Source of the DNA: Barnesiella viscericola DSM 18177
Lineage (GTDB): Bacteria; Bacteroidota; Bacteroidia; Bacteroidales; Barnesiellaceae
Direction of reading: 5' to 3'
Assembly (NCBI RefSeq): GCF_000512915.1
Contig: NZ_CP007034.1
Span: forward strand, 1,922,001 to 1,986,000
Length of the DNA stretch: 64,000 bases
In this document: one piece after another, positions 14,050-61,518 of the stretch
How the letters are laid out: the number at the start of each line of letters is the position of its first letter
Numbering within the stretch: the stretch's first letter is position 1
Position numbers and translations under genes: made by a program
Notes under the pieces: model-generated
The model's input: the letters and a program-made list of their open reading frames with translations, nothing else
What the model was told of the DNA's origin: nothing
Database searches by the model: none

Positions 14050-15081
14050 ACGTGAGTTCGATATAAATTAAAACATCGTGAGTTGTCCGTCTTTGACAAA
14101 ACGTACGTCAATGGCGGGCTTCTTTTCAAAGAAGCAGTATGCAGCTATGGCAGAGAGCGAGTTGGCAATAAAGTTATTGAAGGAACGGTGTCTGGAGTGT
14201 TCAATCTGGGCGATGTTCTTTAACTCGTCATTGACTGTTTCAATCAAAGCACGTTTTCTCAGCAGGATTTTGTCCGCTATGCTCATCAGGGAGTTCTTCA
14301 TGTTGTTCTTCACTTTGGTTATCAACTGTATGCCGTTAAGAAATAGGTTCTCGAACAAGGTTTGCCCGATATACCCCTTGTCCGCACACAGTTTGCCCTT
14401 GATGTTCTTCAGGAACTTTGTCTGTTTCAGCGGTTCACGGTCATCCACATTTCCCGGAGTAAACATGAAATTGAGAATTTCACCCTTATCGTTGATGATC
14501 AGGTGAAGCTTAAACCCGAAGAACCATCCCATGGAGCATTTTCCACGTTCGGCGAGACCCTTAAAAGTCTTGTGAATCAATATGCGTTGGTTTCGGCATA
14601 CACGCAGCGGTGTGGAATCCACAAAGCTGATACCGGTACAAGTACCCAACAGGACTTCCTTGATGAAAATGGTCAGCTGCAGCAGGACTTCCTTTTCCAG
14701 TTCTACAAAACGGTTATAGGACACACGTCTGGGAAAGAGATGCGTCAGATGTTTGCATACATATTCTTTGTAGTAATGCTTGAAACATCTGAAGCCTCCC
14801 GAGTGGAACAGGACTAGGATGACCATGATTTCCGCATCACTCATCCGGTTCGGCTTATTCCGATGCTTATGATTCTTGTCTTCAACCATATATTTTTCCT
14901 GTGTTTTGGCAAATTCCTTGCAAAAATCATCCGCCATACAAAAAATCTCCGTAACTTTAGCCTCTGAGAACATAGTGGTAGTCGCTTAAATGTTATAATT
15001 GAGCACTATAAATTTAATGCTTTTATCGCTATGTTCCTAATTTTCAAACTGATAATTTCAATCTTTATATCGAACTCACGT
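14050..15081 (-). mobile_element. IS982-family insertion sequence, complete
   Basis: 1032 bp bounded by perfect 18-bp terminal inverted repeats ACGTGAGTTCGATATAAA (14050-14067; inverted at 15064-15081) and flanked by the direct repeat TAAATA. It carries one transposase gene on the minus strand. The transposase stop codon touches the inner edge of the left repeat. All parts are intact, so the insertion may be recent and mobile. Confidence 0.92.
14068..14973 (-). CDS. IS982-family transposase
   Basis: 301 aa, full length for the family. A helical N-terminus is followed by a DDE-type core: FVDSTPLRVCRNQRI (first Asp), GFKLHLIINDKGEI and FTPGNVDDREPLK, then LCADKGYIG (second Asp), and RALIETVNDELKN with the Glu. 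It cuts and joins the ends of the surrounding element. The frame is uninterrupted. Codon use is AT-richer than that of gyrB and rnr. Confidence 0.92.
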   Translation of the reverse strand: MFSEAKVTEIFCMADDFCKEFAKTQEKYMVEDKNHKHRNKPNRMSDAEIMVILVLFHSGGFRCFKHYYKEYVCKHLTHLFPRRVSYNRFVELEKEVLLQLTIFIKEVLLGTCTGISFVDSTPLRVCRNQRILIHKTFKGLAERGKCSMGWFFGFKLHLIINDKGEILNFMFTPGNVDDREPLKQTKFLKNIKGKLCADKGYIGQTLFENLFLNGIQLITKVKNNMKNSLMSIADKILLRKRALIETVNDELKNIAQIEHSRHRSFNNFIANSLSAIAAYCFFEKKPAIDVRFVKDGQLTMF

Positions 15082-41743: not shown

Positions 41744-43267
41744 ATGAGCGAGTTACCGACAAAAGAAGTAGGACAGGAGGACGCCACATACGAACATATT
41801 ATAAAATATACGGGTTTGTTTGGTGGTGTGCAGGGGGTGACTATGCTTGTCGGTGTAATCAGAAACAAATTGACAGCGGCCTTGTTGGGGCCTTCGGGGT
41901 TGGGCTTGATTAATATTTACAACAACGTAGTTCGACTCCTGAGCGAAGCCACAAATTTCGGCATATCATTTAGCGCTGTCAGAAATGTATCGGAGCTTTT
42001 TGACGAAGGAGACACGAGGAAAATTGCCGATTTTGTCGATACTGTCAGGACTTGGAGCCTCATGACCGCGATATTTGGCATGGTTGTCTGTTGCGCCATC
42101 TCACCGTTACTGAGCCTGTGGACTTTCAAAAATTACGAATATACGGCAATATTTTGCGCCATTTCGCCCATCGTTGCAATGATGAGCATCATAGGGGGTG
42201 AAATTGCCATTCTGAAAGGTCTCAGGCAACTGAAACGTGTAGCTCTCATATCGGTATTTGGAGCCGCCTCTACCTTGATACTAAGTACGCCCTTGTATAT
42301 TTGGCTGGGGATAAAAGGTATAGTACCCGCATTGCTTCTAAGCAATCTTGCTGTGACGGTAATACACCTGCACTATTCCACAAAAACTTATCCGTGGCAG
42401 GCAACATGGCGTTCCATGAACAACATAAAAAAGGGGATACCGCTCATAAAACTTGGTGTTGCATTTATCTTGTCCGGTGTATTCGGGCAAGGAGCCGAGC
42501 TGTTGATACGAATAGCCCTACTCGATCTTGGTGGACTTGACGATGTGGGATTTTACAACAGCGGATACATGATGGCTGTGACGTATGCCTCTGTGATATT
42601 TGTTGCTCTTGAAACCGATTACTTCCCTCGCCTGTCAGTGGCATGTTTCGATAAGAAGAAAATGAATGTGACCATCAACCGGCAGATTGAAGCCTGTGTA
42701 TTGCTGATGTCGCCATTTCTTACCATTTTTGTCATGGCTATGCCTCTGATTGTACAGATTCTGTTTACCGACCGGTTTACGCCTGCAATCCCGATGGCCA
42801 CATGTGCTGCACTTTACATGTACTTCAAGTCACTGACTCTTCCGGCAGCTTATCTCCCGTTGGCCGTCGGAGATTCTAAAATGTTTCTTACCGTAGAATT
42901 TATTTACGACGCTTTTGTAGCGATAGCCATACCTGTCGGATACAAGATGGCAGGCCTCACCGGTACGGGAATTGCCCTTTCGGTAGCGGGATTTGTAGAT
43001 ATGCTCGTCATACATCTGACACACAGATGGAAATATGGATTCAAATTCAGTTTTACTCCCATGCCTCTATATTTGGCACAGTTTGTCCTGTTAGTGAGCT
43101 GTATTGTAGTATCGTTCTCTGAAAACCCTATGATCAAATGGACCATTGGGCCTGTGTGTGTGTTTATCTCGGTTGCCATATCGTTGTATATACTCAACAG
43201 GGAGATGAATATCATCAGTAAAATAATGAATAAAGTGAAAAAGGGTAAGGATAATGCAGACCAGTAA
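41744..43267 (+). CDS. O-antigen/oligosaccharide flippase (Wzx-like)
   Basis: 507 aa with about 12-14 membrane segments, MATE/MVF-like fold. It opens with YEHIIKYTGLFGGVQGVTML, followed by RNKLTAALLGPSGLGLINIY, typical of the O-antigen translocase group. It should flip undecaprenyl-linked oligosaccharide units to the periplasmic face. Base composition is AT-richer than in the genes up to 41669, suggesting exchange of this block. It overlaps the next glycosyltransferase by 14 bp. Confidence 0.88.
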   Translation: MSELPTKEVGQEDATYEHIIKYTGLFGGVQGVTMLVGVIRNKLTAALLGPSGLGLINIYNNVVRLLSEATNFGISFSAVRNVSELFDEGDTRKIADFVDTVRTWSLMTAIFGMVVCCAISPLLSLWTFKNYEYTAIFCAISPIVAMMSIIGGEIAILKGLRQLKRVALISVFGAASTLILSTPLYIWLGIKGIVPALLLSNLAVTVIHLHYSTKTYPWQATWRSMNNIKKGIPLIKLGVAFILSGVFGQGAELLIRIALLDLGGLDDVGFYNSGYMMAVTYASVIFVALETDYFPRLSVACFDKKKMNVTINRQIEACVLLMSPFLTIFVMAMPLIVQILFTDRFTPAIPMATCAALYMYFKSLTLPAAYLPLAVGDSKMFLTVEFIYDAFVAIAIPVGYKMAGLTGTGIALSVAGFVDMLVIHLTHRWKYGFKFSFTPMPLYLAQFVLLVSCIVVSFSENPMIKWTIGPVCVFISVAISLYILNREMNIISKIMNKVKKGKDNADQ

Positions 43268-44261
43268 AGTATCTATCTTGGTAGCCGTTTATAATGCCGA
43301 GAAATATCTCGGCAAATGCCTGGATTCTCTTGTGTCGCAGACTTACGGGAATATTGAAATACTATGTATTGACGACGGCTCAAATGATAGTTCGGCCGAT
43401 ATCTTGAACAGATATGCATTGACCGATGACCGAATAAAGGTTTTGACACTGTCAAAAAACTCAGGCTTGGCCAATGCAAGAAACGAGGGGTTGAAAGTTG
43501 CTTCTGGACAATACATTACCATGCTCGACAGTGACGATTGGTTTTCCGACGACTCGATAGAAAAAGCCGTTGAAGCCATAGAATCAGAACCGGATGCCGA
43601 TGCCTCCCTGTTTCGGTTGATGCAATACTATGAAGAGACCGGGAAGATGGTCGAATACAAAAATAAAACCGATAAAAAATGTATAAGCGGCGAGGAGGCA
43701 TTCGTACTCAGCCTCGATTGGAGTATACATGGCTTATATATGCTCCGCGCTGAAATACACAAGAAATATTTGTTCGACAACTCAACCTTGCTTTACAGCG
43801 ATGAGAATGCAACCCGATTGCATTACCTGCATTCACGCAAAGTCGTTATGTCGGAAGGTAAATACTTTTACAGAAGACATGTGGAATCGATGACCAACTC
43901 ATGTTCCATACGGAGATTCGACATACTTGCGGCCAATTACAGCTTGTTGCAGCTGCTTAAAAAAGAGGAGAGAGAAGGTTCGCTGACGGACGCCGACAAG
44001 ATTTTCGATTTGTATGAGAACATAAGGTGGCTCAACGTTGTGGGTGCTTACTGGTATTATTTCAACAACAAACAGCACTTTACCGTTGAAGAACAAAAAG
44101 AGATATTGAGCAAAATCTCATCGGCACTGGAAACAATTGATGCCCGAAGGATAAGGCTCGCATTAAAGTTCAAGATCGGTTACTATCCGTTTAAGAATTT
44201 CAGACTTTTTCTCTTATCCGAGAACATCTATTTCCATTTAAGAAAACTGTTGGGCCGATGA
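43254..44261 (+). CDS. Glycosyltransferase family 2
   Basis: 335 aa. GT-A fold: VSILVAVYNAEKYLGKCLDS at the start, EILCIDDGSNDSS, LANARNEGLKVASGQYIT, and the metal-binding DxD as MLDSDDWF near residue 90. The C-terminal half is specific and untraceable. It transfers a sugar from a nucleotide donor to the growing repeat unit. Like the flippase it overlaps, it is AT-rich compared with flanking genes. Confidence 0.9.
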   Translation: MQTSKVSILVAVYNAEKYLGKCLDSLVSQTYGNIEILCIDDGSNDSSADILNRYALTDDRIKVLTLSKNSGLANARNEGLKVASGQYITMLDSDDWFSDDSIEKAVEAIESEPDADASLFRLMQYYEETGKMVEYKNKTDKKCISGEEAFVLSLDWSIHGLYMLRAEIHKKYLFDNSTLLYSDENATRLHYLHSRKVVMSEGKYFYRRHVESMTNSCSIRRFDILAANYSLLQLLKKEEREGSLTDADKIFDLYENIRWLNVVGAYWYYFNNKQHFTVEEQKEILSKISSALETIDARRIRLALKFKIGYYPFKNFRLFLLSENIYFHLRKLLGR

Positions 44262-44322
44262 GTTCGGAGGAAAGTGAATAAAGTTTCAAAGAAAGAGCTA
44301 AATTGAAGGAGAGTATAGGTTC

Positions 44323-45432
44323 ATGAAGATATTGTTAGCAGGTGATTACAGCAATTATCATCGGGCCCTGTCGTTGGCCTTGCGTAGAATGGGGCATGAG
44401 GTGGTCGTGGCATCGGACGGGTCGCAGTGGATGAATACGGCCCGCGATATTGATACGTCGAGGCCTTTCAAGAACAAGGTGGGGGGACTGTTGCTGTGGG
44501 CCAAATTGAATATGCTCTTGAAATCGCGGTTGGAGGGATTTGATGTCGTACAGATTAATTCACCGGGATTTGTCGCCTTGCAACCTTGTCGATTGCGCTT
44601 GTTGTTTGATCACCTGCTTGCCAGGAACGGGGCGGTCTATCTCACCGCTATGGGGACCGATACCTACTACATCGATTTTTGCCTGTCGGGTGCGTTGCGG
44701 TATAACGAATGGAAAGTAGGCAATCAACCCTCGCCGCTTGCCCTTGCCCAACCCGACGAGCTTCGGCGCTGGCAGGCCCCGGTACTGACCGATTACACCC
44801 ATTATGTATATGACCGTGTGCGCGGGATTGTGAGCGGCCTGTATGAATACAACGAGTCGTGTCGCCGGGTGGTCGATTCTTCGCGATTGGCCTATGCCGG
44901 CATTCCCATCGATACCGACTCTTTTACGATGGCGCATGGCGATGAGGTGCCATCGCGGGTCAGACTTTTCCTGGGGGTACATCGCGACCGTATGGTCGAG
45001 AAGGGAACCGACCGTATGTGGGCTGCGGCCCGTCGGGTTGCGGAGCGTCACCCCGACAAGTGCGAGTTGGTTTTTGTCGAGAATCGTCCTTATAGCGAAT
45101 ATGTGGGGTTGATGAGGTCGTCGCATGTAGTGCTTGACCAGCTGTACAGCTATACCCCGGCAACCAATGCTTTGCTGGCGATGGCTCAGGGGTTGGTTGC
45201 GGTGAGTGGTGCCGAGCCCGAATACTACGATTTTATCGGGGAGACCGAGAACCGGCCTGTCGTGAATGCCATACCCGACGATGAGAAGTTGGAAGCTCAA
45301 CTGGAAGATATTGTGCTGCACCCCGAACGTTTGCCTGAACAGGCTCGTCGCAGCCGCGAGTTTGTGGTCAAGCACAATCGCGACGAGGTGGTAGCCCGGC
45401 GATTCCTCGACTTTTGGGCTCGCTGCAAGTAG
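44323..45432 (+). CDS. Glycosyltransferase, GT4-like
   Basis: 369 aa. It opens MKILLAGDYSNYHRALSLAL, a GT-B N-terminal strand-loop with RRMGHEVVVAS. The C-terminal domain has AYAGIPIDTDSF, LFLGVHRDRMVEKGTDRMWA, then VVLDQLYSYTPATNALLAMA and GAEPEYYDF, corresponding to the donor-binding region. The usual EX7E motif is weak, so the family call is tentative. GC-rich codon use returns here, in contrast to the preceding flippase/GT2 pair. It converges on the next GT2. Confidence 0.7.
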   Translation: MKILLAGDYSNYHRALSLALRRMGHEVVVASDGSQWMNTARDIDTSRPFKNKVGGLLLWAKLNMLLKSRLEGFDVVQINSPGFVALQPCRLRLLFDHLLARNGAVYLTAMGTDTYYIDFCLSGALRYNEWKVGNQPSPLALAQPDELRRWQAPVLTDYTHYVYDRVRGIVSGLYEYNESCRRVVDSSRLAYAGIPIDTDSFTMAHGDEVPSRVRLFLGVHRDRMVEKGTDRMWAAARRVAERHPDKCELVFVENRPYSEYVGLMRSSHVVLDQLYSYTPATNALLAMAQGLVAVSGAEPEYYDFIGETENRPVVNAIPDDEKLEAQLEDIVLHPERLPEQARRSREFVVKHNRDEVVARRFLDFWARCK

Positions 45433-45458
45433 TTATCCAATGTAAGTAGGGCTTGATT

Positions 45459-46484
45459 TCAAAGGTGTTTCTTGATTCCCTCTTTCCCTCGTGAGAGGAG
45501 CAGCAACATGCCGTCGGTGAGTGGGCGGTTTTTCCATTTCAATGCCATCTTCATAAGTCGGAAGATGAGGGGTAGCCGGGTCGCCTTTATCACGAAGTCG
45601 TAGTCTTGTTGATAAACCCCTTCCAGGAATTTCCAACGCTCTTGTGGGGGGTAATTTCCCTCGGCTGTATACAGACTGTAAATCGACTGGTAGATGAGGT
45701 GTGCCCGTTCTTCCAGCAGGTAGCGGTCGTACTCCCGATTGTCGATACCGAGTTGGGCGATGAGTCCTTGCCGCAGGACATAGGCCTCGCGAGCGTAGGC
45801 CGACAGTTGCCGGTAGGGTAGCAGTTTGTGGGAGAGAGATAGGTTTTTGCGGTGGATATAGAGGTAGTCGATGTGGGCAATTTGTGCTATCGACTGGCCG
45901 TGTTTCACAAATTCCAATACGAACAGGTGATCTTCGCCATAGGAGTAGCGCGGGTCGAAGCGAAGGTGATGCTGCTCGATAATCTCGCGCTTGAACAGCT
46001 TGTTGCAAGGCCCTTTGGTGGTGTCGTGTATTTCGGCATCGGCAAAGATCATACCCCGTTCCCGATCGGTGTGAGCCGAGCGGGTGTGTTCAAATCCGTG
46101 AGACTCCGTTCGTCCCGACGACTCATAAAGTAGCGATATGCCAGCTATCATCAAGTCGGCCTGCACCGAAAGCAGATGGGAGAGGTAGGAGGAGGTTACC
46201 CGGTCGTCGGCATCGACGAAGGCGATGTATTCGCCCCGGGCCTCGGCCAATCCCCGGTTGCGGGCAGCCGATACTCCGGCGTTGCTTTGGTGCAGGGCTA
46301 CGATACGTGGCTCTCGGGCTGCATATCGGTCGATGATAGCCGCCGAGTTGTCGGTCGAACCGTCGTCGATGACCAGAATCTCAAACGACGAATAGTCCTG
46401 ACTCAGCACGCTGTCGAGGCAGGCCGGCAGGAACGGTTCGGCATTGTAGACCGGTATGATGACGGAGATGAGCGGATTATTCAT
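45459..46484 (-). CDS. Glycosyltransferase family 2
   Basis: 341 aa. GT-A motifs: ISVIIPVYNAEPFLPACLDS, EILVIDDGSTDNSAAIIDRY, VSAARNRGLAEARGEYIAFV, DADD near residue 92, and a Glu-Asp pair (RYSYGEDHLFVLEF) near 185 that often serves as catalytic base. It probably adds one sugar in surface-polysaccharide assembly. Minus strand, alone, with a -7 box 40 nt upstream; it ends 26 bp from the oppositely oriented GT4-like gene. Confidence 0.9.
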   Translation of the reverse strand: MNNPLISVIIPVYNAEPFLPACLDSVLSQDYSSFEILVIDDGSTDNSAAIIDRYAAREPRIVALHQSNAGVSAARNRGLAEARGEYIAFVDADDRVTSSYLSHLLSVQADLMIAGISLLYESSGRTESHGFEHTRSAHTDRERGMIFADAEIHDTTKGPCNKLFKREIIEQHHLRFDPRYSYGEDHLFVLEFVKHGQSIAQIAHIDYLYIHRKNLSLSHKLLPYRQLSAYAREAYVLRQGLIAQLGIDNREYDRYLLEERAHLIYQSIYSLYTAEGNYPPQERWKFLEGVYQQDYDFVIKATRLPLIFRLMKMALKWKNRPLTDGMLLLLSRGKEGIKKHL

Positions 46485-46524
46485 AAGTCTGCGAGTCGGT
46501 GGATATGAGGAAACGGACCTCAGA

Positions 46525-46532
46525 CAAAAGTA
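46525..46532 (-). promoter_or_regulatory. -7 element of the minus-strand GT2 gene
   Basis: TACTTTTG on the minus strand, 41 nt upstream of the start. No -33 TTTG at the right distance. The rest of 46533-46770 is AT-rich, without a supportable gene. Confidence 0.5.
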
Positions 46533-46772
46533 GTGATTTTTCTCAAAAATCCGATGTTAAAATAGGAATGTATTAGAAATAAGCTACTTATGAGCTTTTC
46601 TCAAAGGGCGAGGTAATGACTTGGCAACGGTCGCAAATTCTGTGATATGCGGTGTATTTCTGTCAAACAACTCTTATCGGATGCAAATGTACACAAATAA
46701 AGCGGATGAAAAGAAGAATATAGTATTTTTTTCATGGCTCTGTGGCTATGCGGAGAGCCGCCAGCCTTTTGA

Positions 46773-46814
46773 CAAAATAAAACATCGCCATACACTCAAA
46801 GAGGTTGGCGATGT
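46773..46814 (-). terminator. Terminator of the DUF4377-like lipoprotein gene
   Basis: 9-bp stem ACATCGCCA / TGGCGATGT with a 15-nt loop. On the minus strand it is followed by TTTATTTTGTC, 64 bp after the gene. Confidence 0.8.
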
Positions 46815-46877
46815 GGCAGAGGGGAAATATGATTGGAAAATCAAAAATGGACAAGGAATAGAAATATAATGCTCGGC

Positions 46878-47771
46878 TTAAAGGCTTTCAGCAGAGAGCG
46901 TATAAGATATCACAACCGTTCCCACATTGGCTTCCGGATATTTGGTTTTGTAATACTCGGTCAGGTCTTTATAAAGATAGATGGCACTTGGTGTTCTATC
47001 AACATCTTTTGTTTGAGTAGCATAGCCCATAAATACATCAAATGACAGATTATCAATCGGGGTTTCTGCTTCATCTAAAAAAATCCATTCTCCATAACCG
47101 ACTATCCGTGCATCCAGGGGAAGTATTTTATAGGACTCCGGCATTTCCTCCGGTGCTTTACTTTTGGACTGTATGATATACGGACCAAGCACTTTGTTGT
47201 CATCTTGTAAGGCTATACATTTAAGGATAGCGTCCTCATCACGATAAAGCATATCGTGATAATCCAACGGAATAAGAGAGTTGTCTTTCAAATCCTGTTC
47301 AATGAGTTCTTTATTATCCGCTTCTACCGCATACCTGTATTGTGGTAGTGGAATGTTGTCGTAATATGCTTTTGGAATAAGATGTAATGGCAAGTTTTCC
47401 GAGTCTTTTTTATCTTTGGATATCACTTCAAGTAACTTGCGTTCTGTCCATGCAGGAGTTCCCATACTATAATCCAAATAACTGGTTTCGCCAATTTTAA
47501 TTTGGTATTCATATCCTTTTTCAAACTCAAACCCAGCAATGGAGCCACATGCACTCCATTCATCGGACTGCTCTTGTTTTACAGCATAAACTTCTGACAA
47601 GTAATTAAATCCGTCAGACCAAAGGACACCCGGTATTTTCTCAGATGCCACAGTCAGTACAAATTCTTTATAGCCAGTTATTTTTCGACCTTCTTCATCG
47701 TTATCATCGCAGCTGATAAAGCTAAAGACGCAGAAGAATAAAATCAATACTCCCAATTCTTTTGTTCTCAT
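46878..47771 (-). CDS. DUF4377-like lipoprotein, probable cargo of a lost mobile element
   Basis: 297 aa. Lipoprotein signal LILFFCVFSFISC followed by Asp/Glu residues. The first third matches the DUF4377 pattern (VYAVKQEQSDEWSACGSIAG, FEFEKGYEYQIKIGE). The rest is unrecognised, with an acidic middle and a closing TVVISYTLSAESL. Codon use is clearly AT-richer than that of neighbouring chromosomal genes. It lies downstream of the relaxase remnant on the same strand, which suggests arrival with it. Function unknown. Confidence 0.72.
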   Translation of the reverse strand: MRTKELGVLILFFCVFSFISCDDNDEEGRKITGYKEFVLTVASEKIPGVLWSDGFNYLSEVYAVKQEQSDEWSACGSIAGFEFEKGYEYQIKIGETSYLDYSMGTPAWTERKLLEVISKDKKDSENLPLHLIPKAYYDNIPLPQYRYAVEADNKELIEQDLKDNSLIPLDYHDMLYRDEDAILKCIALQDDNKVLGPYIIQSKSKAPEEMPESYKILPLDARIVGYGEWIFLDEAETPIDNLSFDVFMGYATQTKDVDRTPSAIYLYKDLTEYYKTKYPEANVGTVVISYTLSAESL

Positions 47772-47856
47772 TTTAATCTAATGTATGATGATTATTATTA
47801 CCAAGATAATGTTCTTTTTCTCGTATGTTTCGGAGAAAGTTACCTCAATCCGCTTA

Positions 47857-47864
47857 CAAAAGTA
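47857..47864 (-). promoter_or_regulatory. -7 element of the DUF4377-like gene
   Basis: TACTTTTG on the minus strand, 86 nt upstream of 47771. A hairpin AGGGGAT...ATCCCCT (47863-47892) overlaps it. Confidence 0.45.
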
Positions 47865-47935
47865 GGGGATTTTTCCGATAATCCCCTATCTTCTAATGTT
47901 TTTATTTGCTTTTGGAGTGGATTTTAGAGTACGTT

Positions 47936-48480
47936 CTATATTTTCAGCCTTTTATCCTGCTTTGTAGGTGTAATCCCCAAACAGTTTCTCCATTCATTCG
48001 CTTTCTGTCTGAACCATTGCACAAGCGGAATGTCATTCATGCATATATGGTAGTGTCCTTTCCTGTTCTTGTCCTCCTCAAACGAGAAAGCCGCACTCTC
48101 GTCTCGGAACTTTCGGTTGAACTCGGGAGAATAGAAATCACCTTTCAACCTCACTTTCTTCAATTTACACAACTCCTGAACTACTCTTTCGGAGAATTTC
48201 AAGGTGTTCCGGCAGAAGTCAATCAGCGGCAACAACTTATCCACGTAAGGGAAGTAACGCTGTATCTTGTCCATATACTCGTTGAACTTGGTGCGTTCTT
48301 CCCTATGTGTCCATTCCATCGTTTCAATCTGCCGTACCAATTCTTCGTTCTGACTTTCAAGGGCGGATATGCGTTGCTGCAATTCCTCCCTTTCCGCTTT
48401 CAACTTATTGCCGCCCAAAAGAGAACCGACCCTTGCCACGAGTGCCGTCTTCGCTTCGGTCTTGCCGGGCAGCAGTTCCC
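47936..48480 (-). pseudogene. MobV-type relaxase (Pre/Mob), C-terminal remnant
   Basis: About 180 codons on the minus strand down to a stop at 47936. The segment starts near TALVARVGSLLGGNKLKAER, has a coiled coil (LQQRISALESQNEELVRQIE), and then YFPYVDKLLPLIDFCRNTLK. The end, IPLVQWFRQKANEWRNCLG then TPTKQDKRLKI, matches the C-terminal region of Bacteroides plasmid/transposon mobilisation proteins. The catalytic N-terminal half is missing. The frame continues to 49042 only because it runs antisense through the TolC fragment, and no relaxase sequence is seen there. The junction falls at about 48465-48485. Confidence 0.8.
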
Positions 48481-49066
48481 CGAGATTTTCAACGTGGGGG
48501 TTCCCCTGCGGCTGCTCTCGAAGCGACCCGATGTGCGTGAGGCCGAGATGACGCTGGCCAGTGCCTACTACACGACCAATCAGGCCCGTTCGGCCTTCTA
48601 TCCCAACCTCACCCTGTCGGGGAGTGCCGGGTGGACCAATGCCTTGGGGCAGGTGGTGACCAATCCCGGCGGGTGGATTCTCTCGGCCGTGGCCTCGCTG
48701 ACCCAGCCCATTTTCAACCGGGGCAAGCTGGTGTCGAATCTGCGGGTATCGAAAGACGAGGAGCAGATTGCCCTGCTCAACTACAAGCAGACACTGCTCG
48801 ATGCCGGGCAGGAGGTGAGCGACGCACTCTATGCCGTCGAGTCGGCCCAACGCAATCTCGATATTCACCAGAAGCAGTGCCGCGAGCTGGAACGTACGGT
48901 CGAGACCTCGACCGCTCTCTATAAGACGGGCAATGCCACCTATCTCGAACTGCTCACGGCGCAGCAGTCGTTGCTGAACGCCCGGTTGAATATGGTGTCG
49001 GACAGTTTCACCCATTGCCAGGCCATCATCACCCTCTACCATGCGTTGGGGGGTGGTAGCGACTGA
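48470..49066 (+). pseudogene. TolC-family outer-membrane efflux protein, C-terminal half
   Basis: About 198 codons. It starts near QQFPEIFNVGVPLRLLSKRP, the conserved entry into the second half of NodT/OprM-type outer-membrane factors, and runs through AEMTLASAYYTTNQARSAFY, PNLTLSGSAGWTN and the QPIFNRGKLVSN segment. It ends with TYLELLTAQQSLLNARLN and a normal stop. Signal peptide, lipobox and first repeat are missing. The upstream part of the same frame (from 47906) is merely the complement of the relaxase remnant. The cognate MacAB/RND pump genes are not in the window. It could only be translated as a chimera and is not expected to work. Confidence 0.85.
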
Positions 49067-49081
49067 CCGTGGTGACGATTG

Positions 49082-49855
49082 TCACCGGTTCTTTTCGGTG
49101 AGGTATTTCCAGTAACGCACGGGCATATCCTTCCGTTGCTTGCGGGGGTTGAGTCGCTCCCGTATGCAGATGGACTTGAAATAGGTGCGCCACAAGTCCT
49201 GGAACAGCTTTTCGTCGTCGGCCATGAGCGACTCGTCCAGTTGGCCCGTGACGAAGTGGGGCAGGCTCTCGTCGAAAGTCACCTCGGTGACCTCGTGCTG
49301 GTCGTAGTAATAGCCGTAGTGACGTCTCTTGTCGTAGATAACGAAAGGCTGGTCGGCAAAGCGGTCCTTGAAGTGGGCTATGGCCAGCGGCAGCACGTTG
49401 TACTGCGGCTCCATGATGCCGAAGTAGGTGCCGTCGGCCGCCTTTTGGAAGCGGAGGAACTGCATCATGCGCAGGCGTTCGTAGAGTACTTTGCGGAAGG
49501 TGTCGGTGACAAATCGTATGTCGTCGTCGGCAAAATTGCGTTCGAGGCTCACGGGGCTGTCGATGTTCTTGCAGATGTAGTTGAAGAGGTGCAGGTCCAG
49601 CTCGGGAAGCTCCGACAGGTAGCTCACGGTGATACACGAGAGCGCCTCTTTCGAGAGCTTCTTTTCGAGAGCCCTCCACACGCGGCCCGCCTTCTCCTCG
49701 TCGGTGATTACCGGGTGCACTTCGTCGTGGAACAACGGCAGCGGCTCGTCCATGCCCTGTATGATCTGGGGAAAGGTGCGTCGGGCGTAGGCGTCGAAGA
49801 CGGCCGTGAGCATGCCGTCGAAAGTGCGGTCGTATTGGAAGATGGCGAGTGACAC
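49082..49855 (-). CDS. TIGR03915-family putative DNA repair protein
   Basis: 257 aa. It opens AIFQYDRTFDGMLTAVFDAY, the start of this family (DUF4130-like). Later segments are KEALSCITVSYLSELPELDL, FADDDIRFVTDTFRKVLYER and YFGIMEPQYNVLPLAIAHFK, and it ends RERLNPRKQRKDMPVRYWKY. The family almost always sits next to the radical SAM protein found here 16 bp upstream, and the pair is annotated as DNA repair by association. The reaction is not established to my knowledge. Confidence 0.88.
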   Translation of the reverse strand: MSLAIFQYDRTFDGMLTAVFDAYARRTFPQIIQGMDEPLPLFHDEVHPVITDEEKAGRVWRALEKKLSKEALSCITVSYLSELPELDLHLFNYICKNIDSPVSLERNFADDDIRFVTDTFRKVLYERLRMMQFLRFQKAADGTYFGIMEPQYNVLPLAIAHFKDRFADQPFVIYDKRRHYGYYYDQHEVTEVTFDESLPHFVTGQLDESLMADDEKLFQDLWRTYFKSICIRERLNPRKQRKDMPVRYWKYLTEKNR

Positions 49856-49871
49856 GTGACGAGGTTTGGGG

Positions 49872-51131
49872 TTAGAAAAGGGGTAGCTGCAACTGGCGGT
49901 CGTCCCGCTTCGGAGAGGTCGACGGGGTCAGCAGTCGCCTGACGTTCTCGGGGCGGAGTTCGTTGACGGTAGGCGACGACAGTTCGCCGCAGGTGATGAA
50001 GTACTTGGCCTTCTTCATCACCACCCCCATCTTTTTCAGGTGGTAGCTGTTGATGCGCCCGAAGCGGCGGGAGTTGACAATCTGCATGGCCGATTTCACG
50101 CCGATGCCGGGCACCCGGAGAATCATTTCGTAGGGAGCTTTGTTGATGTCGACGGGGAATACCTCGGGGTGTCGCAACGCCCAGGCCAGTTTGGGGTCGA
50201 TTTCGAGATCGAGGTCGGGGTTGGCATCGTCGACAATCTCGTCGACCTTGAACTGGTAGAAACGCAGCAGCCAGTCGGCCTGGTAGAGGCGGTTCTCGCG
50301 CACCAGCGGCGGTTGCTTCAGCATGGGCAGACGCGTGTCGTAGGTGTTGACGTGAATGTATCCCGAGTAGTAAACCCGTCGCATGGTGGGGCGGGCATAA
50401 AGGGCCGACGACAACCGCAAGATGTCACGGTCGTGGTCGGGGGTGGCCCCCACGATCATCTGCGTACTCTGTCCGGCCGGGACGAATCGCGGGGCATGTT
50501 TGAACCGTTTGCGCTCCTCTTTGGCGGCAAGCGTCTGTTGCTGGATATAAGTCATGGGTTCATAGACGCTCTTGAAATCCTTCTCGGGAGCCAGCAGTTT
50601 CAGGGAACTCTCGTTGGGAATCTCGATATTGACGCTCATGCGGTCGGCATATTTCCCGGCCTCGTTCACCAGCTCCTGACTGGCACCGGGAATGCTTTTC
50701 AGGTGGATATAGCCGTTGAAGCGGTGCAGCGTGCGCAGGTCTTTCACGATAGCTACCAGCCGCTCCATGGTGTAGTCGGGGTTGCGCACGACGCCCGAAC
50801 TGAGGAACAGCCCTTCGATGTAGTTGCGCCGGTAAAACTCGATGGTCAGCTCGACCAGTTCCCTTACCGAAAAGGTAGCCCGGGGAATATCGTTGCTCCG
50901 CCGGTTGATGCAGTAGGCACAGTCGTACATGCACGAGTTGGTAAGCATCGTTTTCAGCAGGGAGATGCAACGCCCGTCGTCGGCAAAACTGTGGCATATA
51001 CCTATCCCGCCCACCGTGTTGCCCAGTCCTCCGCGAGAGTTGGACCGCACGGTACCGCTCGACGAGCACGATACGTCGTACTTGGCCGACTCGGTGAGTA
51101 TCTTCAATTTCCTTAGGGTCTCTTCGGTCAT
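49872..51131 (-). CDS. Putative DNA modification/repair radical SAM protein (TIGR03916)
   Basis: 419 aa. Radical SAM cluster motif CMYDCAYC at residues 67-74 holds the 4Fe-4S cluster that cleaves SAM; IEGLFLSSGVVRNPDYTMER follows. The C-terminal part has a helix-hairpin-helix DNA-binding segment (LRVPGIGVKSAMQIVNSRRF, about 336-356) and ends exactly in RQLQLPLF, which resembles a beta-clamp-binding peptide. These features support action on DNA. Neighbour of the TIGR03915 gene in an operon. Confidence 0.9.
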   Translation of the reverse strand: MTEETLRKLKILTESAKYDVSCSSSGTVRSNSRGGLGNTVGGIGICHSFADDGRCISLLKTMLTNSCMYDCAYCINRRSNDIPRATFSVRELVELTIEFYRRNYIEGLFLSSGVVRNPDYTMERLVAIVKDLRTLHRFNGYIHLKSIPGASQELVNEAGKYADRMSVNIEIPNESSLKLLAPEKDFKSVYEPMTYIQQQTLAAKEERKRFKHAPRFVPAGQSTQMIVGATPDHDRDILRLSSALYARPTMRRVYYSGYIHVNTYDTRLPMLKQPPLVRENRLYQADWLLRFYQFKVDEIVDDANPDLDLEIDPKLAWALRHPEVFPVDINKAPYEMILRVPGIGVKSAMQIVNSRRFGRINSYHLKKMGVVMKKAKYFITCGELSSPTVNELRPENVRRLLTPSTSPKRDDRQLQLPLF

Positions 51132-51170
51132 GACGGTATGCTATGGGTTGAGAGGTATATTGTTGGTAAT

Positions 51171-51199
51171 CAAATATATATTGAACAGGAGCCGTCCAA
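51171..51199 (-). promoter_or_regulatory. Promoter of the radical SAM/TIGR03915 pair
   Basis: -7 TATATTTG (51171-51178) on the minus strand with TTG 18 nt upstream (51197-51199). Leader of about 33 nt. Confidence 0.55.
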
Positions 51200-51320
51200 G
51201 ATGTGGGAACTGTCGCCTTGGTGGTCCCGGAGGATAAAGTTACGGAGTTTTTGTCGCATCGGCGACGATTTTAAGAAAAGAAATTATAAATAGTGGAGAA
51301 AAGTGTCGATATTTGTACCG

Positions 51321-52265
51321 ATGGAACCGAGCAAGATAGCCATAGTAGTCCCCGTCTATAACCGGGAGAAGGAGTTGGTGCGGACCTTTGCCTCAATCGT
51401 GGCGCAGACCTACCGGCCCCTGCATGTCGTGCTGGTGGACAATGGCTCGACCGACCGCTCGCTGGCGCTGTGCCAGGAGTTGAAGGCCCGGTACGAAAGC
51501 GACGATTTTGCGGTGACGGTGGCTCAGGAGGCGAAGCGAGGCCCTTCGGCCGCCCGCAATCGGGGGCTGTCGTGTGTCGAGGAGGAGTATGTCTCTTTTT
51601 TCGATAGCGACGATACCTATGCCCCTGAGGCGATTGCGCTGTATATGCAGGCTTTCGAGCAGAATCCGTCGGCCGACATCGTGGGCTGTACGGTCGAGAT
51701 GGTGCCCGAGACGGGTCGCCCTTATCGGGCCAAGGCTGTTTTCTCGAACCGGGTGGAGCCACATTTGTTCCACTGTACGTTGGGAACCCAGCGTTATGCC
51801 GTGCGTACGGCTTTGGTGCGAGTTGTCGGTGGGTGGCACGAAGATTATATGCGTTGGGAGGACTGGGAGCTGGGGCTGCGTCTGCTGCTGACGACCGATC
51901 GGGTGGTGTGGATCGAGCGTCCGCCGCTGGTCCATGTCTATCTCCATGCCGACAGTATTACCGGCTATCGCTATACCCCCAACAGCGACGATATTTTGCG
52001 GGCCATTGCCCATGCTCATGACGATGTGGAACGGAGTGGTTATCCCAATAAGCGGCGCCTGCATCGCCTGTTGCTCTATAAACAGATAGTAGTGGCTGGA
52101 CTCTGCCATCGCGAGAAGAGTGTGCGGGGGGCCGAGATTTATCGCCTGACCATGGAGCAGGCCGGGCACGACCGCACGTTGCGCTGGTTCCTGCCGCTGG
52201 TCTATCGCTATGTGTCGTACGGGGGGCGCGGTTCGGCTATTCTGGCCGAATGGTTGTTACACTGA
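51321..52265 (+). CDS. Glycosyltransferase family 2
   Basis: 314 aa from ATG 51321; a GTG six codons upstream is also in frame. GT-A motifs: IAIVVPVYNREKELVRTFAS, VVLVDNGSTDRSLALC, GPSAARNRGLSCVEEEYVSF, FDSDDTY near residue 95, and the late RWEDWELGLRLLL, with an Asp-Trp-Glu pattern typical for the acceptor side. It probably works on a surface glycan. It stands alone between the repair pair and the M20 gene, which it overlaps tail to tail by 9 bp. Confidence 0.87.
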   Translation: MEPSKIAIVVPVYNREKELVRTFASIVAQTYRPLHVVLVDNGSTDRSLALCQELKARYESDDFAVTVAQEAKRGPSAARNRGLSCVEEEYVSFFDSDDTYAPEAIALYMQAFEQNPSADIVGCTVEMVPETGRPYRAKAVFSNRVEPHLFHCTLGTQRYAVRTALVRVVGGWHEDYMRWEDWELGLRLLLTTDRVVWIERPPLVHVYLHADSITGYRYTPNSDDILRAIAHAHDDVERSGYPNKRRLHRLLLYKQIVVAGLCHREKSVRGAEIYRLTMEQAGHDRTLRWFLPLVYRYVSYGGRGSAILAEWLLH

Positions 52266-57554: not shown

Positions 57555-58748
57555 TTATTTCAACTGTTCGGCCTGGTTGTAGATAGCCTCGAATATGGTC
57601 TTGTCGGCCTCGGTGAGCAAGCGCCCGCGGCGCGCCATTATCTTCTCGGCAATGGCGTAGAACTTGGGCAGTTGTACGTCGGTAAATCCGGCCGTACCGC
57701 CTTCGCTGAACGAGGCAACGAAGTTGCGGGGGAATCCGGCCCCGTGAATGTTGACCCCCACGCCTATCACCGTGGCGGTGTTGAACATGGTGTTGATGCC
57801 GGCCTTGGAGTGGTCGCCCATGATGAGACCGCAGAATTGCAGATGCGTGGGCAGGAAACGGCGGGTGGGGTAGTTCCACAACTTGATTTCGCTGTAATCG
57901 TTTTTGAGGTTCGAGGCCACGGCTCCGGCACCCAGGTTGCACCATTCGCCGATGACGGCGTTGCCCAGGAACCCGTCGTGCGCCTTGTTGGAGAAGCCGA
58001 ACATCACCACGTTGTTCAGTTCACCGCCCACCTTGCAGTAGGGGCCCAGCGTGGTGGCTCCGTAGATTTTGGTACCCATGTTGACATAGGCATGCTCGCA
58101 GGCGGCAAACGGTGCCCGTATGCAGCTGCCCTCCATCACCTCCGAGTCGGCGCCCAGATAGATGGGGCCGTTGGTTACGTTGAAAATGGCGCACTCGGCC
58201 TTGGCACCGGGCTCAACGAAAATCTTGGAGGTGCCGTCGGCAAAGCAGGGGTCGCCGATGATGCGGTTCGAGGGGCTGAGCGGCTGGCTGGTGCGTCCGC
58301 GGGTGATGAGTTTGAAATCGGCTTCGAGACACTCGCCGTTGAGCAGGAAAATATCGTAGAGATGTTGTATGTACCGAAGTTTGCGGGAGCTTTCGAGGGT
58401 GTGGGCATAGCGGCTCTCCCGGAAGTCGGCTTCACTCCCGCGGAAGGCAACGACCGTCTGCTGGTCGATGAGCGCTTCGCCGGGATTCAGGATATTGACC
58501 TGTCGGGCCAGCTCCTCGTCGGGAATCAGATGGCCGGCTATGAAAAGGTTGTCGTCGGTAAAGTGAGCCGGGTATTTCCCGGCCATGTAATCGGGGGTGA
58601 GGTAGGAGTAGTTGCCGGACAACATGCGTTCCCACTTTTCGCGTATGGTGAGGATACCTATGCGTATGTCGGCGATGGGCCGGGTAAACGCCAGGGGCAG
58701 CAGTTCGAGATGCTGCTGGTTGATGTCGAAGAGAATGATATTTTTCAT
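57555..58748 (-). CDS. GlmU-like putative sugar nucleotidyltransferase
   Basis: 397 aa. The N-terminal half (about 1-180) resembles a nucleotidyltransferase-like fold starting MKNIILFDINQQHLELLPLA with FTRPIADIRIGILTIREKWE. The C-terminal half (about 185-370) is a left-handed beta helix with hexapeptide repeats (GPIYLGADSEVMEGSCIRAP, NAVIGEWCNLGAGAVASNLK). The standard GlmU signature GxGTRM is missing, so it is probably not the housekeeping GlmU. The family is common in Bacteroidota and its substrate is unproven. A well-formed promoter faces it from the ACP-like gene side. Confidence 0.85.
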   Translation of the reverse strand: MKNIILFDINQQHLELLPLAFTRPIADIRIGILTIREKWERMLSGNYSYLTPDYMAGKYPAHFTDDNLFIAGHLIPDEELARQVNILNPGEALIDQQTVVAFRGSEADFRESRYAHTLESSRKLRYIQHLYDIFLLNGECLEADFKLITRGRTSQPLSPSNRIIGDPCFADGTSKIFVEPGAKAECAIFNVTNGPIYLGADSEVMEGSCIRAPFAACEHAYVNMGTKIYGATTLGPYCKVGGELNNVVMFGFSNKAHDGFLGNAVIGEWCNLGAGAVASNLKNDYSEIKLWNYPTRRFLPTHLQFCGLIMGDHSKAGINTMFNTATVIGVGVNIHGAGFPRNFVASFSEGGTAGFTDVQLPKFYAIAEKIMARRGRLLTEADKTIFEAIYNQAEQLK

Positions 58749-58883: not shown

Positions 58884-59129
58884 ATGGAAGAGAATCGTTT
58901 CGTACAGCTGGTTGCGGGTATGTTGTACCGGACGGACCGCGACTCGGTTACGCCGGAAACCCGATATAAGGGATTGAAAGAGTGGAATTTCTTGTTTGAG
59001 GTGTCGCTGGCGATGATGCTCGAAGAGGAGTATCACGTGGAGGTGACGCCCGAGGATTTTTCGAGTACGGGAACTCTGGACGAACTGTTTCGGCGGGTGT
59101 GCGCCCCTCGTTTGGTCAATAAGGATTAA
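58884..59129 (+). CDS. Acyl-carrier-protein-like protein lacking the phosphopantetheine serine
   Basis: 81 aa from ATG 58884; the frame is open 31 codons upstream, but that part has no ACP character. It is acidic and helical, with ACP layout: helix 1 (about 1-18), YKGLKEW loop, helix 2 beginning NFLFEVSLAMMLEEEYHVEV, and VTPEDFSSTGTLDELFRRV as loop and helix 3. In carriers the helix-2 start is D-S-L with Ser bearing 4'-phosphopantetheine. Here it is N35-F36-L37, and the codon is TTC, so it cannot be loaded in the normal way. The AsnB-like gene follows after 27 bp and is probably co-transcribed. Confidence 0.7.
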   Translation: MEENRFVQLVAGMLYRTDRDSVTPETRYKGLKEWNFLFEVSLAMMLEEEYHVEVTPEDFSSTGTLDELFRRVCAPRLVNKD

Positions 59130-59156
59130 CAAGATGATGAGGAGGTGTAACGGATT

Positions 59157-60845
59157 ATGAGCGGCTTGTCGGGAATTGTAGGGGAGGTAGAGTGGATAGA
59201 ACGGGTGTTGCGGCAAATGGCCGAGGCGCAGGAGCATCGGGGTGGAGAGAAACCGGTAGGGTGGGTCTCCTCGTTTGTCGATGCCCGGGTGGGCCTGATG
59301 CACAATCGCCGGGTGACCATCGAGTCGGCCCGGGCCCCGAGCCAGCCGTTTGACGATACTGACACGGGGCTGGTCGTCATGCTCGACGGCGAGATATTCA
59401 ACTATGCCGAGGTGCGTGAACGCCTCTCCAACTACTACCGGTTTTCGACCGAGGGGGTGTGCGAGGTGGTGGCTAAGGCCTATGACCGCTGGGGTGATAG
59501 CTGTTTCGACCGCTTCGAGGGCTATTTTGCGATAGTTATCTACAACCGTTTTTCCGAGGAGTTGCTGCTCTGTCGCGACCGCTTTGGAATCAAGCCGTTG
59601 TACTATGCCACCCATCGGGGTAACCTCTACTTTGCTTCGGAGGTGCGAGCCCTCTTTGCCGCAGGAATCAGGCCGTTGCTCTCGGCCGAGCGATGGGCCA
59701 GCTACCTGGCCTATTCGACCTACGGCAGTCCCTACGAGACCTTTTGGGAGGGGGTGCATCAGCTGCCGGCCGGATTTCTGTTGCACTACAACGGTTATTC
59801 GCTGGTCGAGAGGCGGTGGTATGCGTTTGAAAACCGGGTGAAGGCGTGGAGCGAAGAGTCGCCCGAGCGCCAGACCGAAGCCTTCCTGGACCAGTTGCAC
59901 CGCAGCGTGGGGTACAGCCTCATGGGCGATATGCCCAAGGGGCTCTCGTTGGACGGCGGGGTGGAGTCGGCCCTCTTCATCGCGTTGATGAAGGCGGTAG
60001 GGTGCCCCCGGTATTTGAAAAGTTACATGCACTATCGCGGCAAACTGCACCAAAGCAGTGCCCTGTGGGGAGCCGAACTGTTGTCGGAGACCGCATTGCC
60101 GCTGGAGCAGGTGGCCATCACGAAGACGATGTTGCTGAAAGAGCTCGACTACCTGACCCGTTGGCAGGAAGAGCCGGTCGACGGGGTGGATATGGTAGCC
60201 CGCTCGGCCTTTTTCAGGGTGATGCGCAAGCGGGGGCTTGCCGTGGTCAGCGGCGGTTGGGGGTTAACCCATCTCCTGGGTAATACACCGCTTCCCGGCG
60301 ACCGGTACTCGTCACTGGTGCCGTCGGAGCTGCTGTCGGCCGATTTTCGCCAGCTAGCCCGGAAACCGCGCTATCGGCATCTGTTCGAGTCGGAGAACGA
60401 CCAGTTGAGGTTTTGCGACCTCTGTTATGAGCGCCTGCCCCACCTGTTGCGCAGTGTAGACAAGATGAGCATGTATTACGGGGTGCAGCTCAGAAATGCC
60501 TTTCTGAATCACAACCTCGTTGAGATAGCCTTTGCCCGGGCCGAGGGTTCACCCTCGGGCCGTAACCGTAGGCAATGGTTCGCCCGGCAGATTGTGGAAC
60601 CGCTGCTCCCGGCACAGATACGGCTGGCCCCTGAGGACGAACCGGGAGAGCCCGAACTGACCTCCGATTTGAAGTCGTGGGCCGATGAGGTGGTGTTCGA
60701 CCTGCGCTACGGACGAGCCTCGGCCTGGTTCGACCACACCCGGTTGGAACGGGAGTGGCAACAGGGCGACGAGGGGCTCTTTGCCGACCCGATGAAGGTG
60801 TGGAAGCTCCTCTCGTTGTGTCTGCAACTGAAAAACCTGCCGTAG
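59157..60845 (+). CDS. Asparagine-synthetase-like protein with altered active sites
   Basis: 562 aa with AsnB architecture: N-terminal Ntn-glutaminase-like domain (about 1-200) and C-terminal synthetase-like domain (about 235-530). Family landmarks remain (LLCRDRFGIKPLYYATHRGN, SVDKMSMYYGVQLRNAFLNH), but key residues differ. The start is MSGLSGIVG, with no Cys at position 2. NGEIYN reads DGEIFN (77-82). The pyrophosphate loop SGGLDSS reads DGGVESA (266-272). SGEGADELF reads SGGWGLTHL (365-373). FLDH reads FLNH (449-452). An in-frame stop lies just upstream of the ATG, so no better N-terminus is hidden. Glutamine hydrolysis and adenylation are both unlikely. The role is unknown, perhaps structural or regulatory with the ACP-like partner. 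Confidence 0.85.
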   Translation: MSGLSGIVGEVEWIERVLRQMAEAQEHRGGEKPVGWVSSFVDARVGLMHNRRVTIESARAPSQPFDDTDTGLVVMLDGEIFNYAEVRERLSNYYRFSTEGVCEVVAKAYDRWGDSCFDRFEGYFAIVIYNRFSEELLLCRDRFGIKPLYYATHRGNLYFASEVRALFAAGIRPLLSAERWASYLAYSTYGSPYETFWEGVHQLPAGFLLHYNGYSLVERRWYAFENRVKAWSEESPERQTEAFLDQLHRSVGYSLMGDMPKGLSLDGGVESALFIALMKAVGCPRYLKSYMHYRGKLHQSSALWGAELLSETALPLEQVAITKTMLLKELDYLTRWQEEPVDGVDMVARSAFFRVMRKRGLAVVSGGWGLTHLLGNTPLPGDRYSSLVPSELLSADFRQLARKPRYRHLFESENDQLRFCDLCYERLPHLLRSVDKMSMYYGVQLRNAFLNHNLVEIAFARAEGSPSGRNRRQWFARQIVEPLLPAQIRLAPEDEPGEPELTSDLKSWADEVVFDLRYGRASAWFDHTRLEREWQQGDEGLFADPMKVWKLLSLCLQLKNLP

Positions 60846-60940
60846 ACGAGGCGGCTGCCCGGCGGGTCACTCCGCATGCACTCGGGAAAGCCGTCGATAA
60901 AATAAAGCCGATTTGTCTTCGTTCTGCCCGAGGATTGCAC

Positions 60941-60948
60941 TATCTTTG
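60941..60948 (+). promoter_or_regulatory. -7 element of rfbC
   Basis: TATCTTTG, 18 nt before the first ATG. The stretch ahead (TTCTGC, CGAGGATTGCAC) resembles that ahead of rnr P2. Confidence 0.55.
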
Positions 60949-60966
60949 TCGAAAGACCAAAAAGAG

Positions 60967-61518
60967 ATGATGAACTTTATCGAGCAGAAACTGAAAGGCG
61001 TTTTCGTCATAGAGCCGCAAGTCTTTGGCGACAGCCGGGGCTATTTCATGGAGAGTTATAAAAAAGAACTTTTCGAGCAATATGTCGGGCCGGTCGATTT
61101 CATTCAAGACAACGAGTCCCGGTCGAGTTACGGCGTGTTGCGCGGCCTTCATTATCAGAAGGGAGAGTGGTCGCAGGCCAAGCTGGTGCGGGTCACCCAG
61201 GGGCGGGTCTATGACGTGGCGGTAGACTTGCGCCGGTCGTCGCCCACGTTCGGGCAATACATCGGGGTAGAGCTCTCCGACGAGAACAAGAGGCAACTCT
61301 ATATCCCGCGCGGATTTGCCCACGGATTTGCCGTGCTGAGCGAGACCGCCCAGTTCTGCTACAAGGTCGACAACGTGTATGCCCCCCAGCACGAAGCCAC
61401 GCTGCGCTACGACGACCCCCGGGTGGGGGTGGTGTGGCCGGTGAAAGCCGAGGAGATGCTCCTCTCGGACAAAGATCGGGTCGGACTCGGGTTCGACGAA
61501 ATCGAAACCTTTGAATAA
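60967..61518 (+). CDS. rfbC: dTDP-4-dehydrorhamnose 3,5-epimerase
   Basis: 183 aa from ATG 60967 (a second ATG follows directly). Cupin fold of the RmlC type: VFGDSRGYFMESYKK, QDNESRSSYGVLRGLHYQKG with the catalytic His, the substrate-binding VRVTQGRVYDVAVDLRR, and IPRGFAHGFAVLSE. Converts dTDP-4-keto-6-deoxyglucose to the L-rhamnose precursor. The other rml genes are not in the window. It follows the AsnB-like gene by 121 bp with its own promoter, so a functional link is only suggested by order. Confidence 0.94.
   Translation: MMNFIEQKLKGVFVIEPQVFGDSRGYFMESYKKELFEQYVGPVDFIQDNESRSSYGVLRGLHYQKGEWSQAKLVRVTQGRVYDVAVDLRRSSPTFGQYIGVELSDENKRQLYIPRGFAHGFAVLSETAQFCYKVDNVYAPQHEATLRYDDPRVGVVWPVKAEEMLLSDKDRVGLGFDEIETFE

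Follow-up and report, generated by a model that had tools for sequence, protein, structure and literature searches.

A conserved serine-less ACP-like gene and a motif-deficient AsnB-like gene beside rfbC in Barnesiella viscericola

The DNA analysed here, referred to as the window, is a stretch of 64,000 nucleotides from the genome of Barnesiella viscericola DSM 18177, which measures 3.08 Mb in a single contig. Positions 58884-61518 run from the ATG of an ACP-like gene lacking the attachment serine (58884..59129, plus strand, 81 aa; assigned from a PF00550 match below cut-off and an AF2 fold model) through the stop of rfbC. A gap of 27 bp on the same strand (59130..59156), containing a GGAGG-type ribosome-binding site, separates the ACP-like gene from an AsnB-like gene (59157..60845, plus strand, 562 aa), which was assigned from the Pfam domains GATase_7 and Asn_synthase and by setting its motifs against those of 21 + 7 intact homologues. 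They are followed by rfbC (60967..61518, plus strand), encoding a dTDP-4-dehydrorhamnose 3,5-epimerase (TIGR01221, 250.4 bits; curated cut-off 155.75), and by rpsL, while a divergent GlmU-like gene (57555..58748, minus strand; TIGR03991 alt_bact_glmU, 377.9 bits; curated cut-off 225.3) lies on the other side of the pair. The rfbC gene was the sole match in this genome, and each of five Barnesiella genomes searched gave one match. Coordinates, strands, the 27-bp gap, the position of rfbC on the 3' side and the opposed GlmU-like gene all agreed with the original prediction. A reading as an anti-phage defence component was rejected, as no PADLOC family matched any of the four proteins searched at E 0.01 or better. 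Elsewhere in the window, a 301-aa ORF (14068-14973, minus strand) resembles an insertion-sequence transposase by eye, and GT family-2-like ORFs with weak matches to a GT2-like query were seen within 43254-52265 (at 43254 on the plus, 45459 on the minus and 51321 on the plus strand), which may mark a polysaccharide locus some 7 kb upstream of the ACP/AsnB pair.

ACPs are defined by the serine that bears the phosphopantetheine arm, and an ACP without this serine cannot carry an acyl group. The window protein scored 18.2 bits against PF00550 (PP-binding), below the cut-off of 20.8; its genome holds one ACP above the Pfam cut-off, the serine-less gene falling below it. An AF2 model (eight sequences) reached a pLDDT of 80.5, and in a Foldseek comparison with the PDB an ACP was named in eight of the ten best rows, with TM values of 0.55-0.69 and none at E 0.001 or better; model and best rows together agree with a four-helix ACP fold. 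At the N-terminus of helix II, Asn35-Phe36 takes the place of the attachment Asp-Ser, so that the gene is serine-less as had been claimed, and the EW(S/N/G)SL of its relatives is EWNFL in this protein. Residues 33-37 are EWN(F/Y)L in all nine Barnesiella genomes, with Phe or Tyr at the position of the arm-bearing serine in 9/9. Ser41 was considered as a replacement serine and rejected, being the ordinary 'ALS' serine of helix II that is also found in intact ACPs.

The same feature was found in 19 serine-less ACPs, 15 from a sample of 393 genomes of the order and four from further Barnesiella: the serine is absent in 19/19 and its position, preceded by EWN in every case, is taken by F, Y, L, I, M or V. 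The 15 sequences, 14 complete and one ended by a contig edge (G333, recognised from sequence), are distributed over the families f1 (five), f61 (four), f69 (four) and f89 (two). A profile of the serine-less ACPs (A4) recovered 14 members in the order sample at E 1.9e-31 or better, the next match following at 2.1e-20, and in the tree the group forms one clade with a bootstrap of 100 (14 of 30 tips). Outgroup ACPs kept the serine in 16/16 inspected, a count from which lower-ranked matches without a locus were left out. A sample of 395 genomes of the phylum yielded no additional serine-less ACP at E 1e-18; the two matches were the window protein and an intact ACP in G534. The serine-less group is ancient, the serine having been lost in the ancestor of all its members.

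The AsnB-like protein has both expected domains, GATase_7 (112.5 bits, cut-off 25) and Asn_synthase (62.1 bits, cut-off 21). It scored below the cut-off of the glutamine-hydrolysing AsnB model TIGR01536 (222.6 vs 267.1 bits) and far below that of TIGR03108 eps_aminotran_1, the WbpS-type model (169.7 vs 816.9 bits). The residues of a glutamine-hydrolysing AsnB, namely the N-terminal Cys, the oxyanion Asn with D98 and the SGGxDS pyrophosphate loop, are all missing: S2 stands at the Cys position, DGE replaces NGE with D77 at the oxyanion Asn, the D98 position has no Asp and SGGxDS reads DGGVES. GxGxDE has become GGWGLT. Numbers such as R49, N74 and D98 follow the E. coli numbering; a further loop position, that of Glu348 in E. 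coli, was dropped as a diagnostic because it is occupied by E, Q, T, D or H among intact homologues. An AsnB without the pyrophosphate loop cannot adenylate. The model of the AsnB-like protein was left out of the fold search because of its pLDDT of 38.8.

Relatives that are about 37-42% identical over the full length were found in f61 (two of five genomes), f89 (one genome) and f22 (five genomes in the sample), and the resulting 17 proteins (nine from Barnesiella, three from f61/f89, five from f22) were compared with 21 AsnBs of the order and seven of the phylum. The intact AsnBs kept Cys, R49, N74, D98, SGGxDS and the DE pair in 21/21 and 7/7, respectively, and none of the 17 AsnB-like relatives has N74 (the oxyanion Asn) or D98. 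The remaining signatures differ by family. Cys, R49, SGGxDS and the DE pair are all kept in the three f61/f89 proteins; the Barnesiella proteins keep R49 in 9/9 and Cys in 4/9, with SGGxDS and DE lost in 9/9; in those of f22, R49 and SGGxDS are gone in 5/5, as is the Cys, replaced by Ser in four and by Gly in one, which leaves SGGxDS absent in 14/14 proteins of f1 and f22. The window protein bears out the described loss of catalytic residues, but the term 'cysteine-less' does not apply genus-wide, since four of the nine Barnesiella proteins begin with MCG.

In the AsnB tree (44 tips), the AsnB-like group is supported at 100 and is sister to seven intact AsnBs, again at 100; within it, f1 and f22 join at 100 and f61 and f89 at 75. 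Those Barnesiella proteins that carry the Cys are grouped in a clade (92), which is not the case for the Cys-less ones. By residue distribution and tree, AsnB function was lost stepwise: the glutaminase residues went first, then the pyrophosphate loop in the f1/f22 ancestor and finally the Cys. Catalysis had been proposed to disappear from both partners together; simultaneous loss is rejected by the residue distribution, the ACP serine being gone already in the ancestor of its group and the AsnB residues vanishing one step at a time.

Gene order and strands are the same in 9/9 Barnesiella genomes, and the ACP-AsnB gap measures 19-28 bp in all of them. The gap between AsnB and rfbC is 65-131 bp in eight of the nine and 1222 bp in L018, where about 1.1 kb is inserted relative to the other Barnesiella; that between rfbC and rpsL is 247-253 bp in eight and 4251 bp in L017, which has an insertion of about 4 kb. 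Since the order is shared by all nine and the nine AsnB-like reading frames contain no internal stops, the locus is neither chance nor a sequencing error. Median pairwise dN/dS values within Barnesiella (Nei-Gojobori) were 0.070 for the ACP-like and 0.108 for the AsnB-like gene, compared with 0.082 for the GlmU-like gene, 0.040 for rfbC, 0.054 for argB and 0.037 for fadD (nine rows each for the first four genes, four for argB, three for fadD); these ratios are rough because dS was often saturated, being finite in 30/36 ACP pairs and 23/36 AsnB pairs. Catalytic motifs that are lost in frames under purifying selection are what is expected of conserved pseudoenzymes, and conservation in 9/9 Barnesiella under such selection argues against a decaying remnant.

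The original prediction called for conserved co-occurrence in other genomes, and this was found in part. The pair is present in 12 genomes of three families (9/9 Barnesiella, 2/5 f61, 1/3 f89), its two genes sharing a strand and lying no more than 1.3 kb apart in every case, and in f61 and f89 it sits at an unrelated genomic site; five genomes in each direction hold one of the genes alone. It had further been held that intact catalytic residues should not prevail among such pairs, which is true of the ACP, without serine in 12/12, and partly true of AsnB, where the Cys is present in 7/12 and the pyrophosphate loop in 3/12, the oxyanion Asn and D98 being gone in 12/12. In the 393-genome order sample, the AsnB clade occurs in 13 genomes, the ACP clade in 15 and both in eight. 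Five genomes (G076, G180, G272, G338 and G197) have the ACP but gave no AsnB match at 1e-30, a set that excludes G173 and G333, where the locus is cut off by a contig end; conversely, five f22 genomes have AsnB but lack the ACP. With five genomes keeping each gene alone, neither needs the other everywhere and their losses are not strictly coupled. In G197, the ACP and a GT2 gene are kept and AsnB is cleanly missing between the neighbours that flank it in G096 (L078): the AsnB-like gene is absent at L089:10219-10369, between the GT2-like and META-domain-like genes. In an rpoB tree of 24 tips, the five families f1, f22, f61, f69 and f89 form a clade (0.993) and f1 groups with f22 (0.999), a grouping of f61 with f89 not being recovered; f89 was represented by G284 alone and f69 by two genomes, G338, G096 and G197 having no rpoB match, and the G272 row was left out. 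As the five families form one clade, the tree is compatible with one origin and separate later losses.

The neighbours are conserved to different degrees. The GlmU-like gene keeps its place and orientation in 9/9 Barnesiella and adjoins the AsnB-like gene in 5/5 f22 genomes, which makes it a conserved neighbour. In f22, just as in Barnesiella, the AsnB-like gene has the GlmU-like gene to one side and the ribosomal genes of the rpsL side to the other. The distance of rfbC varies outside Barnesiella: from AsnB it is 67 bp away in G068 and about 7.4 kb in G265; in G076 it lies at 2.4 kb from the ACP, and in G180, G338 and G096 it is on other contigs.

The proposed setting in surface-sugar synthesis was supported by the relatives, in that sister AsnBs and outgroup ACPs do lie in surface-polysaccharide-type loci. 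The seven intact sister AsnBs (L191-L197, other Bacteroidia; about 565 aa) are preceded by neuC-like and neuA-like ORFs in 7/7 and accompanied by a neuB-like ORF in 6/7, as judged by eye; in L191, the one locus tested by Pfam, NeuB, Epimerase_2 and CTP_transf_3 were confirmed. They differ from the AsnB-like group in keeping Cys, R49, NGE, D98, SGGxDS and DE in 7/7, and no ACP of the serine-less profile occurs within their 18-kb stretches. By profile, the ACP-like protein is closest to intact ACPs of ACP-SDR-KASIII cassettes (e.g. L199), which in contrast carry the attachment serine and adjoin short-chain dehydrogenase and KASIII-type genes (one locus by Pfam). Among AsnB superfamily proteins of surface-glycan pathways, the WbpS/WbqG-type uronamide synthases such as P. 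gingivalis PGN_1234 are comparable, but the window protein is far below TIGR03108, also below TIGR01536, and lacks the catalytic residues. Deletion of WbpS in P. gingivalis abolishes the uronamide (PMC7468200), and uronamide formation, as demonstrated for this enzyme, is the intact function closest to the AsnB-like body.

The three pairs outside Barnesiella (f61, f89) have the order ACP, glycosyltransferase, AsnB. The intervening gene is GT2-like in G265 and G096, as also in G197, and GT4-like in G068, as also in G173, which is ended by a contig edge. The GT2-like proteins are short (L076:8692-9372, L078:10020-10748 and an ORF from 9278 in L089) and have lost the DDGS and EGDD motifs in 3/3, a relative in G116 keeping DDAS and EGDD; with DDGS and DxD lost, the GT2-like gene between ACP and AsnB may be a pseudo-glycosyltransferase. 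The G068 protein is related to a protein of a neu-type locus (E 5e-21 to L195) and has neither a match in Pfam nor a useful one in the PDB, its designation as GT4-like resting on inspection by eye and on that similarity.

Overall, the observation behind the original prediction was confirmed and its interpretation partly supported: the locus is a conserved pseudo-carrier/pseudo-amidotransferase pair of one Bacteroidales branch, for which neighbours and ancestry suggest a role in envelope glycans. That catalytic residues were lost while selection keeps the genes suggests binding rather than catalysis. Our preferred reading, to which we assign a probability of roughly 45%, is that the two proteins, once a carrier and a uronamide-type amidotransferase, are retained for protein binding without catalysis, as an adaptor or scaffold serving envelope-glycan synthesis. 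Lacking a prosthetic group, the ACP-like protein would use the face of helix II to dock on the AsnB-like body or on an envelope glycosyltransferase, and the pair could stabilise, tether or regulate a step of envelope-glycan assembly, plausibly one using dTDP-rhamnose, because rfbC adjoins. The genomes that keep one gene alone and the mirror-tree result given below speak against this reading, and a glycan link is weakened by the distance of rfbC in one of the nine Barnesiella and by its being unlinked in several relatives. In f61 and f89, where the synthetase loop is kept, the AsnB-like protein may have remained a ligase that draws nitrogen from something other than glutamine.

The closest functional precedent for such a binding role is AcpM on the mycobacterial cell-wall arabinosyltransferase EmbB. 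This ACP is described as a bound subunit held via helices 2 and 3, with a branching signal going down by about 40% when the contact is broken (PMC7305291). EmbB-AcpM and MmpL5-AcpM, in which an ACP is bound to an envelope enzyme, also account for several of the best fold matches of the ACP-like model; they differ in that AcpM is a true carrier with its serine and that its mycobacterial partners, being membrane proteins, have no relationship to AsnB. More tentatively, and with less than even odds in our estimation, the locus could encode a sub-complex made up wholly of non-catalytic relatives of glycan enzymes (pseudo-carrier, pseudo-amidotransferase and, in some families, pseudo-glycosyltransferase) that regulates or chaperones envelope-glycan synthesis in one Bacteroidales branch.

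Two independent pseudo-proteins might instead share an operon, each with partners of its own, their adjacency reflecting joint transcription with rfbC. Such independence, which we consider rather unlikely, would agree with the persistence of each gene alone in five genomes and with the co-variation data: ACP and AsnB protein distances correlated at r 0.77, with a partial r of 0.19 given the GlmU-like neighbour, so that the mirror-tree analysis showed no excess beyond common descent and no signal of the co-evolution that had been proposed, nine close genomes giving it little power. It is at odds with 12 pairs in three families that are always co-directional and within 1.3 kb, also at the unrelated site of f61 and f89.

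It is less probable still that the AsnB-like protein remains an enzyme of altered chemistry, with Ser as nucleophile or, in f61/f89, as an ATP-dependent ligase using another amine, the ACP-like protein being its activator. The four signatures kept in all three f61/f89 proteins would suit such an enzyme, as would purifying selection on the Barnesiella synthetase core (residues 245-460, dN/dS 0.082), where constraint equals that on the remainder of the protein and exceeds that on the C-terminal tail; the pyrophosphate loop, however, is gone in 14/14 Barnesiella and f22 proteins, and in one f22 protein the nucleophile position is occupied by Gly instead of Ser. Slow decay of a polysaccharide cassette is the least probable explanation, for although motifs were lost stepwise, the intervening GT2 genes are short and motif-less and AsnB has dropped out of G197, decaying pseudogenes are disfavoured by dN/dS values near those of housekeeping neighbours, zero internal stops in nine AsnB frames, an intact order in 9/9 Barnesiella and, for the ACP, an EWN motif that is both new and invariant.

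No paper describing a serine-less ACP/AsnB-like pair was found among titles and abstract starts of open-licence PMC papers, which is weak evidence of novelty because the search covered those papers only. A whole ACP clade without the serine, with Asn followed by a hydrophobic residue fixed and selection still acting, would provide a clear-cut example from nature of a binding-only ACP fold. The AsnB relatives, caught at successive stages of losing catalysis, would offer a testable series from biosynthetic enzyme to non-catalytic partner in gut Bacteroidales.
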